From Fructobacillus fructosus KCTC 3544 (GTDB lineage: Bacteria > Bacillota > Bacilli > Lactobacillales > Lactobacillaceae), in the NCBI RefSeq assembly GCF_001438695.1, contig NZ_JQBH01000001.1, positions 65,248 to 129,247 of the forward strand: DNA of 64,000 nucleotides, given 5' to 3'. The notes below the pieces were generated by a model. It saw only the letters and a program-made list of their open reading frames with translations. It did not search any database and had not been told where the DNA came from. This document shows positions 10,560 through 13,682 of the stretch, one piece after another. A program made the position numbers and the translations under genes. Each line of letters begins with the position of its first letter. The first letter of the stretch is position 1.

Positions 10560-10627
10560 AAGTCATCAACGCTACTCTGACTATCCATCTCTAAAAAAAG
10601 AACTTTTTTGGTCTGGTTGTAAATAAA

Positions 10628-10642
10628 AATATTCCGAATATT
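10628..10642. promoter_or_regulatory. Inverted repeat upstream of the small-RNA promoter
   Basis: AATATTC-C-GAATATT, a perfect 7-bp inverted repeat with a 1-base centre, immediately before the putative -35 of the small RNA. Looks like an operator; the regulator is unknown. Confidence 0.4.
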
Positions 10643-10643
10643 C

Positions 10644-10673
10644 ATAACAAGACCAACGATGGCCTGCTACAAT
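10644..10673 (+). promoter_or_regulatory. Promoter of the small-RNA candidate
   Basis: Extended -10 TGCTACAAT (TACAAT at 10668-10673) with a partial -35 ATAACA (10644-10649) at 18 bases. Predicts a transcript start near 10680. Confidence 0.55.
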
Positions 10674-10679
10674 GCAAGT

Positions 10680-10826
10680 GAGGTTTTCAACAACTGAAAA
10701 CTTCATCAGGTTGAGTGACTCTCCCACTCAGCACCTCCTTTCTTTAAGTCTTGCTCATCAATCCGATGAGCATCACACCTCCTTTCCACTAACAGCGCTT
10801 GTCCACTTCGGCAGGCGTTGTTTTTG
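10680..10826 (+). ncRNA. Candidate small RNA with two anti-Shine-Dalgarno segments
   Basis: No reading frame fits this gap. The plus strand has four hairpins in a row: 10681-10703 (9 bp, ACAAC loop), 10710-10732 (8 bp, ACTCTCC loop), 10752-10772 (8 bp, AATCC loop) and an 11-bp terminator stem 10791-10822 followed by T5. Between hairpins lie two unpaired CU-rich stretches, CACCTCCTTTCTTT (10732-10745) and ACACCTCCTTTCC (10775-10787). Both contain ACCTCCTTT, the anti-SD of the 16S rRNA 3' end. Known small RNAs of Firmicutes use C-rich loops against SDs, but this arrangement is not one I recognise. The minus strand would read as two strong ribosome sites followed by only a 9-codon frame or a poor frame. 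Confidence 0.6.
10791..10826 (+). terminator. Terminator of the small-RNA candidate
   Basis: Arms AACAGCGCTTG (10791-10801) and CAGGCGTTGTT (10812-10822), 11 bp with two G-U pairs, followed by a T run. Confidence 0.75.
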
Positions 10827-10831
10827 TCATC

Positions 10832-10863
10832 AAAAAAACACCATGCTTGCACATGATGTTTTT
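10832..10863 (-). terminator. Terminator of the distal 2HCT transporter gene
   Basis: Minus-strand AAAACATCATG-TGCAAG-CATGGTGTTTT followed by more T. It sits tail to tail, 5 bases from the small-RNA terminator. Confidence 0.78.
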
Positions 10864-10870
10864 GAAGTGA

Positions 10871-12184
10871 TTAAAGAATGGTAATGAGTAAGCCACCCAA
10901 AACAAGGATAATCGCACCACCAATTCGGTTCCCCATTTGAGCAAAGGCAATCAAGCCCATACGATCAGAGGCAGACAAAACAGCAACGTTTCCAGTACCA
11001 CCCATTGAGTTGTTAATCATTCCACCAGCAATGGCTGATTCGACAGGATACAGTCCGAAGAGCTTTCCAAGCAAGCCACCGGCAATACCAATGGTCACAA
11101 CCGAAATCAACGAACAAAGAACCAGCTGCCAAGTAACCGTCTGAAGCAACTTGTTCATATCAACAAGAGCCAAACCGATTCCAGCCAAAAGAGCAGGAGT
11201 CGTTGCCGAAGTAATCATACCACCAAACATGGCCGCAGATTCTTCATAAAATTTCGGTACCAAATTAAAGGCTTTTGCCAAAATAACTAACAAAATCATG
11301 AAGGCAAAGGCGTTGATTGATGGAATGAAGTGGAAGAGAATGTTTCCCATGATGTAGAAGGAAAGCGCCACCATCATACCGTTCAACAATTGTTTGTTAT
11401 TCATTGTTGGCGCGGCTGATTGCTTTCCACCAACCTGTTCATCGGTCTTCAGCAAGGCACCGTGCCCATTCATTTTAGAATGAGTAGTGAACTTAACCAA
11501 TAGCGATGAGCCAATGATGGCCAGCAAGTTGGCAATCACCACTGCTGGGAACAATTGATTCAAAATATCCCCAGCTGATTGATGGAGGGCTGAAGCATAG
11601 GAGGCCGAAAGCGGAACGATTCCGGCACCAATACCACCCGCCATCATTGGAAATGCCACGTATAGAGCCGCATGCTTGAACGAAAAGCCAAGGGCCATTC
11701 CAGACAATGAAACGACGAAGAAAGTAATAATCATCGCACCAAAGGCAACCGGCAAGAAACGCACCGCAGACTTCAGCAAGAGGTCCCGATCCATCTTCAA
11801 GATGGCAGAACAAATCAAGGCAACAATATAGAATTCAAGAAAGTTATCGTTTGAGATAAAAGTCTTAATGTTGACGACTGCTGCATGGGGCACCACACCC
11901 ATGGCGGTCAAAGCAGAACCAGCCACAACAGCAAGTGCTGAACCACCACCCAAGTAGGACTTTAAAATCGGCGTATTGTTTCCCACATAGAAGAAAACGC
12001 CCCCTAAGATAACGAGGGCAAACAAAGCACCACCGATGTTTTCTGGCAAGGCATTGATGGTCATCACCGCAACCAAAAGTAACAACATCATGATAAAGAA
12101 AACACCACCAATGTTCGTCACTTGAATTTTTTCATTCATTTTCGCTAGCAGGCCAGCGCTTTTTTCTGAAGAATTCTCAGACAT
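10871..12184 (-). CDS. 2-hydroxycarboxylate transporter (CitP/MleP family), second copy
   Basis: Membrane carrier of the 2HCT family, which exchanges or symports citrate, malate or lactate; citrate-lactate exchange builds proton motive force. The 437-residue, roughly 11-helix protein has both family re-entrant motifs: FPMMAGGIGAGIVPLS (about 180-195) and NNSMGGTGNVAVLSA (about 388-402), followed by FAQMGNRIGGA with the conserved substrate-binding Arg. Own promoter (extended -10 TGTTATACT at 12231-12239) and terminator, so it can be expressed apart from its neighbour. It is close to the next gene throughout, and looks like a tandem duplication. Which one carries citrate and which malate cannot be told. 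Confidence 0.88.
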   Translation of the reverse strand: MSENSSEKSAGLLAKMNEKIQVTNIGGVFFIMMLLLLVAVMTINALPENIGGALFALVILGGVFFYVGNNTPILKSYLGGGSALAVVAGSALTAMGVVPHAAVVNIKTFISNDNFLEFYIVALICSAILKMDRDLLLKSAVRFLPVAFGAMIITFFVVSLSGMALGFSFKHAALYVAFPMMAGGIGAGIVPLSASYASALHQSAGDILNQLFPAVVIANLLAIIGSSLLVKFTTHSKMNGHGALLKTDEQVGGKQSAAPTMNNKQLLNGMMVALSFYIMGNILFHFIPSINAFAFMILLVILAKAFNLVPKFYEESAAMFGGMITSATTPALLAGIGLALVDMNKLLQTVTWQLVLCSLISVVTIGIAGGLLGKLFGLYPVESAIAGGMINNSMGGTGNVAVLSASDRMGLIAFAQMGNRIGGAIILVLGGLLITIL

Positions 12185-12230
12185 GTCACACTCCTTTAAT
12201 TTTCGTTTGATGTATAAAAAATACTTGGCT

Positions 12231-12259
12231 AGTATAACATCTCAATTAAGAAAATAAAG
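12231..12259 (-). promoter_or_regulatory. Promoter of the second 2HCT transporter
   Basis: Minus-strand TTTATT (12254-12259), 17-base spacer, TATACT (12231-12236) with a TG extension (TGTTATACT). Confidence 0.55.
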
Positions 12260-12301
12260 CAGACATTTTTTCAAAAGTGTAGTTTTATGAGGCAAAACAA
12301 T

Positions 12302-12330
12302 AAAAAAGCCACCCGAATGGGTGACTTTTT
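12302..12330 (-). terminator. Terminator of the first 2HCT transporter
   Basis: AAAAAGCCACCC-GAAT-GGGTGACTTTTTT; symmetrical A/T runs. It separates the two transporter genes. Confidence 0.8.
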
Positions 12331-12365
12331 TATTTTAAGTGATTTTATTGAATTATTAAGAAAAC

Positions 12366-13682
12366 TTAGCCCCAAATGGTAACCAAGAAACCGGCGATAA
12401 CCAAGACAAGGGCACCACCGATACGGTTACCCATCTGAGCAAAGGCGATCAAGTTCATCCGGTTGGCTGCTGACAAAACAGCAACGTTTCCAGTTCCACC
12501 CATTGAGTTGTTGGCCATACCAGCTGCAACAGCTGATTCGACAGGGTAGAATCCAAAGAGCTTTCCAAGGAATCCACCAACAACCGTAACGGAAATAACT
12601 GAAACAACAACACAGATTGCCAATGGCAATGAGAACGTTGAGATCAACTGTGTCAAGTCAAGCAAAGCAAGACCAACACCAGCAAGCAAAGCGTGCGTCA
12701 TCGTCTTAACGATCATCTGTCCAAACATAACAGAAGATTCTTCGTAATATGCTGGAACAATTCCCAAGGCCTTGATGATGATGGCAAGCAAAATCAAGAA
12801 AGCAAAGACGTTGATTTGAGGGACCAACTTATTCAGGATGGTACCAACCATGAAGAATGAGAAGGACGTCATCATACCAACAAGCAACTGCTGAACGTTC
12901 AAATCAGGAATCTTAATTCCTTCAGAGTTGGCGTCGCCAGTTTCACGCATTAACTGACCGTTTCCGTTCAACTTTGAGTTACCTTCAGTAAAGCGAGTCA
13001 ACAAACCGGCTCCGATGATAACCAGCAAGTTCGACATAACCAATGGTGGAAAGAGCTGTGACAAAATAGTACCTGAAGATGCATGCATCGTCGACGCATA
13101 AATCTTTGACAATGGTACGATTCCGGCACCAACACCTCCGGCCATCATTGGGAAGGTCACGAAGAGTGACGTGTGTGAGAACTTCATACCCAACAACATT
13201 CCAACACCACCAACGATGAAGAAAGTAATGATCAACGTCAAGAAGGCAACTGGCAAGAAACGCACCGCAGCCTTCAAGACCATTTTCCGGTCCATCTTAA
13301 AGATGGCGGAAATAATCAATGAAACGATATAGAAGTCCAAAAAGTCAGAAGTTGAAATAAAGGACTTTACCGTCACAATCGTAGCGTGTGGCACCACACC
13401 AGTTCCTGCCAAGATGGCTCCACCAATCGTGGCGAAAACAGATCCACCACCAAGGTAAGACTTAAAGATTGGCAAGTGAGAACCAAGGTAGTACAAGATA
13501 CCACCCATGGTTACAAGTACAAACAAAGCGCCAATCATTGTGTTTGGCAAGACCTTCATTCGCAAAACAAGAACGAGAAGGATCAACATGATGATGAACG
13601 CAACACCACCAATTCCATCAACGTTCCATTTATTTTCTAATTTCGACCAGAACCCCTTCTGGTTCGAAGCGTTTTCATTCAT
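12366..13682 (-). CDS. 2-hydroxycarboxylate transporter (CitP/MleP family), first copy
   Basis: A 438-residue 2HCT carrier, paralogue of the gene at 10871. Same signatures: FPMMAGGVGAGIVPLS (about 180-195), NNSMGGTGNVAVLSA (about 389-403) and FAQMGNRIGGA with the substrate-coordinating Arg. Between helices a loop (about residues 225-250) differs most from the paralogue. Ribosome site GAGGAG before the ATG. No terminator separates it from the hydrolase 71 bases upstream, so it is probably the last gene of a citXG-hydrolase-transporter transcript. Its place at the 3' end of the cit locus matches citP of Leuconostoc and Weissella, so it is the likelier citrate carrier; this is inference. Confidence 0.88.
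   Translation of the reverse strand: MNENASNQKGFWSKLENKWNVDGIGGVAFIIMLILLVLVLRMKVLPNTMIGALFVLVTMGGILYYLGSHLPIFKSYLGGGSVFATIGGAILAGTGVVPHATIVTVKSFISTSDFLDFYIVSLIISAIFKMDRKMVLKAAVRFLPVAFLTLIITFFIVGGVGMLLGMKFSHTSLFVTFPMMAGGVGAGIVPLSKIYASTMHASSGTILSQLFPPLVMSNLLVIIGAGLLTRFTEGNSKLNGNGQLMRETGDANSEGIKIPDLNVQQLLVGMMTSFSFFMVGTILNKLVPQINVFAFLILLAIIIKALGIVPAYYEESSVMFGQMIVKTMTHALLAGVGLALLDLTQLISTFSLPLAICVVVSVISVTVVGGFLGKLFGFYPVESAVAAGMANNSMGGTGNVAVLSAANRMNLIAFAQMGNRIGGALVLVIAGFLVTIWG

Follow-up and report, generated by a model that had tools for sequence, protein, structure and literature searches.

A predicted small RNA with two conserved anti-Shine-Dalgarno linkers as a likely trans-acting regulator in Fructobacillus

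Between two minus-strand genes of Fructobacillus fructosus KCTC 3544, dnaG and a gene for a 2HCT-family transporter, the plus strand carries a short stretch that looks like a free-standing transcription unit with two copies of an anti-Shine-Dalgarno (anti-SD) motif. Does this locus, analyzed within 64,000 nucleotides of contig NZ_JQBH01000001.1 (referred to below as the window, whose positions are used throughout), encode a small RNA (sRNA) and, if so, what does the RNA do? The evidence makes it very likely that this is a real, conserved, structured small RNA, and it is likely to be a trans-acting repressor that pairs with Shine-Dalgarno (SD) sequences. The full proposal, in which we have good but not complete confidence, is that of a trans-acting non-coding sRNA of ~147 nt, with its own, probably activator-dependent promoter, whose anti-SD linkers pair with strong-SD mRNAs and block 30S binding. 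It draws on sequence features, namely, a conserved promoter, compensatory stems, invariant linkers, a terminator, a stand-alone position, and a distribution confined to one clade, from which we infer transcription, linker-mRNA pairing in trans, repression, and control by an activator.

The predicted unit, all on the plus strand, starts with an extended -10 element (TGCTACAAT, positions 10665-10673), detected in a consensus scan and matching TGnTAnAnT in all six orthologues described below. The RNA itself (positions 10680-10826), its start inferred 7 nt past the -10 element and its end set at the terminator U-tract, would fold into a 5'-terminal hairpin 1 (positions 10680-10704), hairpin 2 with a CUCUCCC loop (positions 10710-10732), hairpin 3, which is also seen as an inverted repeat (positions 10752-10772), and an intrinsic terminator consisting of hairpin 4 and the U-tract, found in a terminator scan (positions 10791-10826). 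Hairpins 2 and 3 are separated by linker 1 (CACCUCCUUUCUUUAA, positions 10732-10747; core CUCCUUUCUUUAA at 10735-10747), which carries the first anti-SD copy, and hairpins 3 and 4 by linker 2 (CACCUCCUUUCCA, positions 10776-10788; core ACCUCCUUUCCA at 10777-10788), which carries the second. The extended -10 element, the four hairpins, and the terminator are thus all present where the first-pass annotation of this DNA had placed them, and the 15-bp inverted repeat that it reported upstream was recovered with 18-nt arms (positions 10608-10625 and 10639-10656, 83% complementary). Taken on their own, neither the promoter scan (3 promoter-like sequences versus 2.3 expected) nor the terminator scan (1 terminator-like sequence versus 1.5 expected) is significant. 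The plus strand has a predicted minimum free energy of -55.3 kcal/mol (z -8.6, within a range of -8.6 to -9.0 for the RNA), which was equaled by none of 200 shuffled sequences; the z value for the minus strand is -2.3.

Relatives of this RNA are easily overlooked. When the 271-bp region served as a blastn query in 41 genomes, the source genome alone was recovered, though five orthologues are present among the 41, so that this miss is no evidence of absence: the stems have little sequence conservation. Among the regions upstream of dnaG in 13 genomes of the genus, there was one relative (in genome G010), with the same layout and different stems. A search for the linkers in a collection of named genomes returned nine matches, five of them from Fructobacillus, and these five are the orthologues in F. 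durionis, F. papyriferae, F. papyrifericola, F. parabroussonetiae, and Fructobacillus sp. CRL 2054. The other four (an Aminicenantes metagenome-assembled genome [MAG], a Deltaproteobacteria MAG, and two places in an uncultured-Bacilli MAG) lack the layout, and their linker strands fold at -2.6 to -27.1 kcal/mol. A looser linker pattern found 11 places in 7 of the 13 Fructobacillus genomes, of which 6 are the same RNA; the other five (three in G004 and one each in G003 and G008) were dropped on inspection, as they have no four-hairpin and terminator layout. In 301 genomes of the bacterial family, a strict twin-motif pattern matched two genomes, and its reversed control matched one genome, twice. 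The second strict match, in G004 (locus L002), was rejected because it lies antisense to a small open reading frame (ORF) near a type-I-toxin-like sequence (by eye) and is without the architecture. By eye, L002:1480-1700 and L151 appear to hold small type-I-toxin-like (Fst/holin-like) ORFs with very strong GGAGGTG sites.

The six sequences, 146-158 nt long as delimited here, were used to build a covariance model, R1, with 30 base pairs and with hairpin 1 left unpaired. The window RNA, one of these six, matches the model at 101 bits (E 4.8e-22), and over the 13 Fructobacillus genomes the six members score 101-140 bits; as R1 was derived from these very sequences, such scores are to be expected, and what counts is the distance to the next best place, at 25.8 bits. 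At E values up to 10, the model listed 66 places in the 13 genomes, 60 of them besides the RNA family; none of the 12 of these 60 weak places that were inspected shows the family layout, and several resemble SDs that belong, in the sense direction, to small genes or phage-tail genes on the opposite strand. The linker patterns and the covariance search, the latter suggested by the first-pass annotation, together place the RNA in 6 of 13 Fructobacillus genomes and detected no orthologue beyond this genus: among 121 genomes of the bacterial family, from 40 genera and including 5 Fructobacillus genomes, only two matched, both Fructobacillus, in a search with stricter filters and at most 25 candidates scored per genome, in which weak relatives could be lost. 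Rfam 15 contains no family that matches the window RNA or the five orthologue loci (L081-L085) at the gathering score; the four sub-threshold matches are all on the minus strand. In a DnaG tree of 13 rows (that of G005 partial), the six RNA-bearing genomes form one clade with support of 98/96, and G004, which lacks the RNA, is sister to this clade. The simplest account of this distribution is that the RNA family was gained once.

The stems of these RNAs bear the marks of compensatory evolution. In the alignment fitted to model R1, from which all pair counts are taken, 20 of the 30 modelled pairs have double (compensatory) changes, a number reached in none of 500 shuffles; 83.9% of the cells pair, and the covariation score is 0.584, versus 0.303 in shuffles. 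When the 3' partner is slid by 1-3 columns, at most 7 double-change pairs remain. The terminator contributes 12 pairs, with 100% of the cells paired in six species and double changes in 9 pairs, and the pair counts also support hairpins 2 and 3. Hairpin 1 was not aligned by MAFFT, and its support comes from six single-sequence folds, each of which has a hairpin at this place, with differing sequence; RNAalifold run on the raw alignment returned hairpin 2 and the terminator only. In the loop of hairpin 2, UCCC is found at the same place in four of the six orthologues. Plus-strand z values range from -6.7 to -11.3 across the six.

In contrast to these changing stems, the linkers stay fixed. Both spacers carry the anti-SD motif ACCTCCTTT, as the first-pass annotation had noted, and both are predicted to be unpaired: the mean unpaired probability over the six species is 0.80-0.98 for the linker 1 motif and 0.87-0.98 for that of linker 2. 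With both strands of the window counted, ACCTCCTTT occurs exactly twice, at 10733 and 10777, each time inside the RNA; this count (0.73 expected) is unremarkable in itself, since at least two copies are present in 17 of 100 shuffles. The 13-nt core of linker 1 and the 12-nt core of linker 2 are invariant in all six orthologues, and the linkers, as CTCCTTTCTTTAA and ACCTCCTTTCCA, account for 25 of the 38 invariant columns of the six-way alignment. The 12-mer CACCTCCTTTCT has two occurrences in the 1,484,857-base assembly, one in linker 1 and the other, within GGATCACCTCCTTTCTAAGGA, at the 3' end of the 16S rRNA gene; the Rfam 16S model stops 2 nt short of the end of this 12-mer, and the match is one to the gene sequence. 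The earlier statement that linker 1 matches the 3' end of 16S rRNA holds over 12 nt in this species and does not extend to the family, in which the first 9 nt of the invariant core match. Beyond the part shared with 16S, further bases are invariant, namely, UUAA after linker 1 and CA after linker 2.

A probably activator-dependent promoter would yield an RNA of ~147 nt in which three hairpins and the terminator hairpin keep two short linkers open; these linkers, CUCCUUUCUUUAA and ACCUCCUUUCCA, would pair with the ribosome-binding sites of strong-SD mRNAs, and the pairing would block 30S binding, as streptococcal csRNAs and Listeria LhrC do. Such pairing is suggested by the anatomy (two displayed anti-SD linkers) and by the known csRNA, LhrC, and RsaE/RoxS systems. 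Of the functions raised in the first-pass annotation, sequestration of ribosome-binding sites on mRNAs appears to be the best supported. The accompanying claim that all nearby genes have AAGGAGG sites failed: of nine mechanically listed starts, one has AAGGAGG and six have AGGAG.

Candidate targets were sought as exact complements of the linkers across the 13 genomes. In this genome, the 13-nt complement of linker 1 occurs at three sites outside the RNA (ireB, a tape-measure-like phage gene, and a helix-turn-helix [HTH] gene), and across genomes it precedes ireB (Pfam IreB), tape-measure-like phage genes, an HTH gene, a glycosyltransferase-like gene (by eye), and others. The complement of linker 2 precedes small toxin-like ORFs, a tape-measure-like gene, and a recO-like gene (names assigned by eye). 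The ireB gene is preceded by a 13/13-nt complement in four of the six RNA-bearing species and by a 12-nt complement in the other two. A hybridization screen covered 354 called genes on 379,029 bases (26%) of genome G000, with gene starts guessed by script, and for 85 of these genes, reciprocal-best orthologues were present in two or more of three further species that were sampled in part (in G003, ireB was missed). In this partial screen, ireB ranks first of the 85 for both linkers.

Several observations weigh against a repressor of this kind. All seven species that lack the RNA also carry 9-12 nt of this complement ahead of ireB, which ranks second of the 85 genes when the plain 16S tail is used and falls to ranks 9 and 50 once the 16S energy is subtracted. 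Moreover, some linker bases are predicted to be paired (e.g., two in linker 1 of G007, with unpaired probabilities of 0.12-0.13), and an anti-start codon, CAU, located 2-4 nt before the CCUCC of linker 2, is found in just three of the six RNAs. Judging from the ireB ranks with the 16S tail and after subtraction, predicted pairing follows SD strength, which is compatible with a small set of strong-SD targets as well as with a broad effect.

The strongest competitor is a general SD sink, or ribosome mimic, which would have no special targets, compete with the 16S tail, and damp translation globally, e.g., in stress. That predicted pairing tracks plain SD strength with no extra target signature speaks for it, as does the identity of 12 nt of linker 1 with the 3' end of the 16S gene, a 12-mer otherwise absent from the assembly. 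However, this 12-nt match is not kept in the other five species, the invariant UUAA and CA past the 16S match suggest constraint beyond mimicry, and an RNA acting in this way would presumably have to approach the abundance of ribosomes. We consider a sink of this type unlikely. Invariant linkers of 12-13 nt, arguably longer than generic SD pairing needs, could also be explained by binding of a protein or of a small RNA with a G-rich seed, in which case mRNA pairing would not be the function. This option is improbable, as SD pairing offers the simplest explanation for anti-SD content in the two linkers; we know of no protein or small-RNA partner of the linkers, and none was looked for.

A further alternative is that the GGAGG sequences are SDs of small ORFs on the opposite strand, with the plus-strand RNA as their mere mirror image. 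In the window, the complement of linker 2 indeed reads GGAGG-n4-ATG followed by the 9-codon frame MLIGLMSKT, the other GGAGG site leads to a 48-aa GTG frame, and four of the nine pattern matches in the genome collection have no four-hairpin layout and resemble double SDs of sense genes. However, conservation of these frames was not observed among the six: after the linker-2 site they read MLIGLMSKT, MLTI, MLTRKP, a 17-aa frame, a single codon, and none, and behind the linker-1 site they run for 48, 14, 3, 3, 3, and 3 codons. All six orthologues have their promoter and their U-tract on the plus strand. The minus-strand z values are weaker in 6 of 6, yet the minus strands of G010 and G003 also fold well (z -8.0 and -8.3), so that the strand is set by the promoter, the U-tract, and the linkers and not by folding alone. 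The first-pass annotation had named conservation of the minus strand alone as an outcome that would speak against an sRNA; the opposite was observed, with the plus-strand promoter, stems, U-tract, and linkers kept in six species and the minus-strand micro-ORFs not. The minus-strand explanation is therefore largely refuted and retains very little probability.

The next downstream gene (counting frames of at least 90 aa) is convergent in all six genomes, and the upstream neighbors vary, being either dnaG or surface-protein genes, on the same strand or divergent. A cis-acting leader, attenuator, or 3' untranslated region element of a neighboring gene, for which F. papyriferae and F. papyrifericola offer a same-strand surface-protein gene ending just upstream, is just as hard to sustain, since the window, F. 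durionis, and F. parabroussonetiae do not have their upstream gene on the same strand, with both the convergent downstream neighbor and the RNA's own promoter kept in six of six. As the downstream gene is convergent throughout and the minus-strand micro-ORFs are not conserved, the locus is neither a leader nor an antisense gene.

Genes for proteins with Muc_B2-like domains adjoin the RNA in each of the four other species whose neighbors were examined for domains: F. papyriferae (on both sides), F. papyrifericola, F. parabroussonetiae, and F. durionis. Judged from these four, the position at the edge of a citrate island, proposed in the first-pass annotation, is special to this species. In the window, two tandem paralogous 2HCT transporter genes (positions 10871-13682) adjoin citrate lyase genes, and a separate terminator-like inverted repeat (positions 10834-10863, not assigned to a strand; 12-nt arms, 92%) lies immediately beyond the convergent transporter gene. 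By eye, dnaG also stands beside a similar transporter gene in G001 and G011 (loci L012 and L015), where R1 finds no RNA, and the interval upstream of dnaG appears to be a variable site, with different surface-protein-like genes in different species (L005, L006, L008, L009, L011, L013, L014, and L017).

How does this RNA compare with known anti-SD sRNAs? The Firmicutes class of C-rich anti-SD sRNAs has anti-SD sequences in single-stranded regions, as predicted here for the two linkers, and consists of stand-alone non-coding units with their own promoter and terminator, as the sequence of this locus indicates. RNAs of this class repress mRNAs by pairing with their SDs, as the Fructobacillus RNA may do. 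The CiaR-regulated csRNAs of streptococci were predicted from an activator site, a properly spaced -10 element, and a terminator, come as several RNAs per regulon, have anti-SD sequences in unpaired regions, and share a conserved nonamer around UCCUAAA that four csRNAs lack (PMC3091779). The Fructobacillus RNA likewise combines a putative activator site, a -10 element, a terminator, and anti-SD sequences in unpaired regions. In contrast to csRNAs, it has two separate anti-SD linkers among four hairpins, comes from a different genus, and has no Rfam match; the anti-start codon that adjoins the anti-SD sequence in csRNAs has its CAU counterpart in half of the family. The six promoters contain no CiaR box (TTTAAG-N5-TTTAAG), the best match on either strand having 3-5 mismatches of 12, and UCCUAAA is absent from all six RNAs; with both the box and the nonamer missing, the RNA was not filed as a csRNA.

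LhrC of Listeria monocytogenes is a multicopy sRNA with redundant CU-rich SD-binding sites containing UCCC, targets a cell-wall adhesin, and depends on the two-component system LisRK, for which the authors knew no LisR consensus (PMC4132741). Several CU-rich SD-binding sites in one sRNA are common to both, and the adhesin target of LhrC may be compared with the Muc_B2-like neighbor in four Fructobacillus species. Unlike LhrC, the Fructobacillus RNA has one strong R1 match per positive genome, and both of its conserved sites are in linkers, which lack UCCC; this tetranucleotide is present in the hairpin 2 loop of four RNAs. RsaE/RoxS, a Firmicutes sRNA, has multiple C-rich regions able to pair with SDs, and RoxS is under the control of ResDE (PMC4409812). 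The Fructobacillus RNA shares such multiple C-rich regions but has no Rfam match at the gathering score. Its architecture presumably differs from that of RsaE/RoxS as well. Full-text searches on small RNAs of Fructobacillus, Leuconostoc, or Oenococcus, judged by the papers listed, yielded nothing on this family and no paper on a trans-acting sRNA of Fructobacillus; a study of 6S RNA in lactic acid bacteria (PMC8414754) was among these papers. The functional class is an established one, and the family itself is without precedent in the resources searched.

The promoter adds a second layer. A gapless alignment of the six orthologues revealed an 18-nt element (ATTCCGAATATTCATAAC, positions 10631-10648, plus strand, approximately -49 to -32), a putative activator site with the consensus ATTC-n2-A-n3-TTCAT-n-A in 6 of 6 and with 16 nt between it and TGnTAnAnT; the promoter fragment with this element is ATTCCnAnnnTTCATCAC. 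No -35 box was recognized in the six promoters, and the position of the element would be that of a class II activator site. In G003 and G008, the apparent terminator of the upstream gene overlaps the element, and in the window the inverted repeat flanks it; the other three species keep the element with no overlapping terminator or inverted repeat (by eye).

The 18-mer, which was defined from these same six promoters, is found on its own at 14 places in 9 of the 13 genomes, 6 of them without a correctly placed -10 element. With up to 3 mismatches, the element plus -10 occurs at 34 places in the genus, versus 24 for a reversed control, so that loose matches mean little, and only matches with 0-1 mismatch were used (the copy at the F. 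durionis sRNA has 2). There are 12 such places: five are promoters of this sRNA, and the other seven comprise M78-peptidase genes (in G007, G008, and G009), a second RNA family (in G008 and G010), and two RNA-like stretches (in G004). All three genes behind the element (L030:1501-2163, L042 from 961, and L066 from 1501) encode M78 (ImmA/IrrE-like) peptidases according to Pfam, and the one in G009 (F. durionis) adjoins an AIPR gene. The putative second RNA family, present in F. parabroussonetiae and F. papyrifericola behind the same promoter element (L041:1501-1740, plus strand; L060:1300-1543, minus strand), shows 79% mean column identity, with the blocks GCCTTACCGTCTGCTAAC, CTTCCATCA, and ACACCAATCCTC and a terminator-like end. 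In G004, the minus strand of L044 has an RNA-like unit within ~260 bp upstream of its element, with a TATAAT, complementary ends, one CACCTCCTTTC, and a terminator-like hairpin (by eye), and with an R1 match of 23.4 bits; it is possible that this unit is a functional counterpart of the twin anti-SD RNA in a genome without the family.

The sharing of the element suggests a common activator for the sRNA, the second RNA family, and the M78-peptidase genes. A more far-reaching and quite tentative scenario, which we think may well be wrong, is that an as yet uncharacterized Fructobacillus activator drives a small battery of regulatory RNAs (the twin anti-SD RNA, the second RNA family, and further RNA-like transcripts) together with an M78-peptidase gene and that the twin anti-SD RNA is a mimic of the ribosome tail that resets many strong-SD mRNAs, in a csRNA-like network that would have evolved independently and without CiaR. 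The RNA described here adds another example to the anti-SD RNAs of Gram-positive bacteria, and it illustrates how plain sequence searches can miss such RNAs, whose stems turn over around two linkers of 12-13 nt that stay fixed. For Fructobacillus, the promoter element may lead to a new regulator and to more RNAs.
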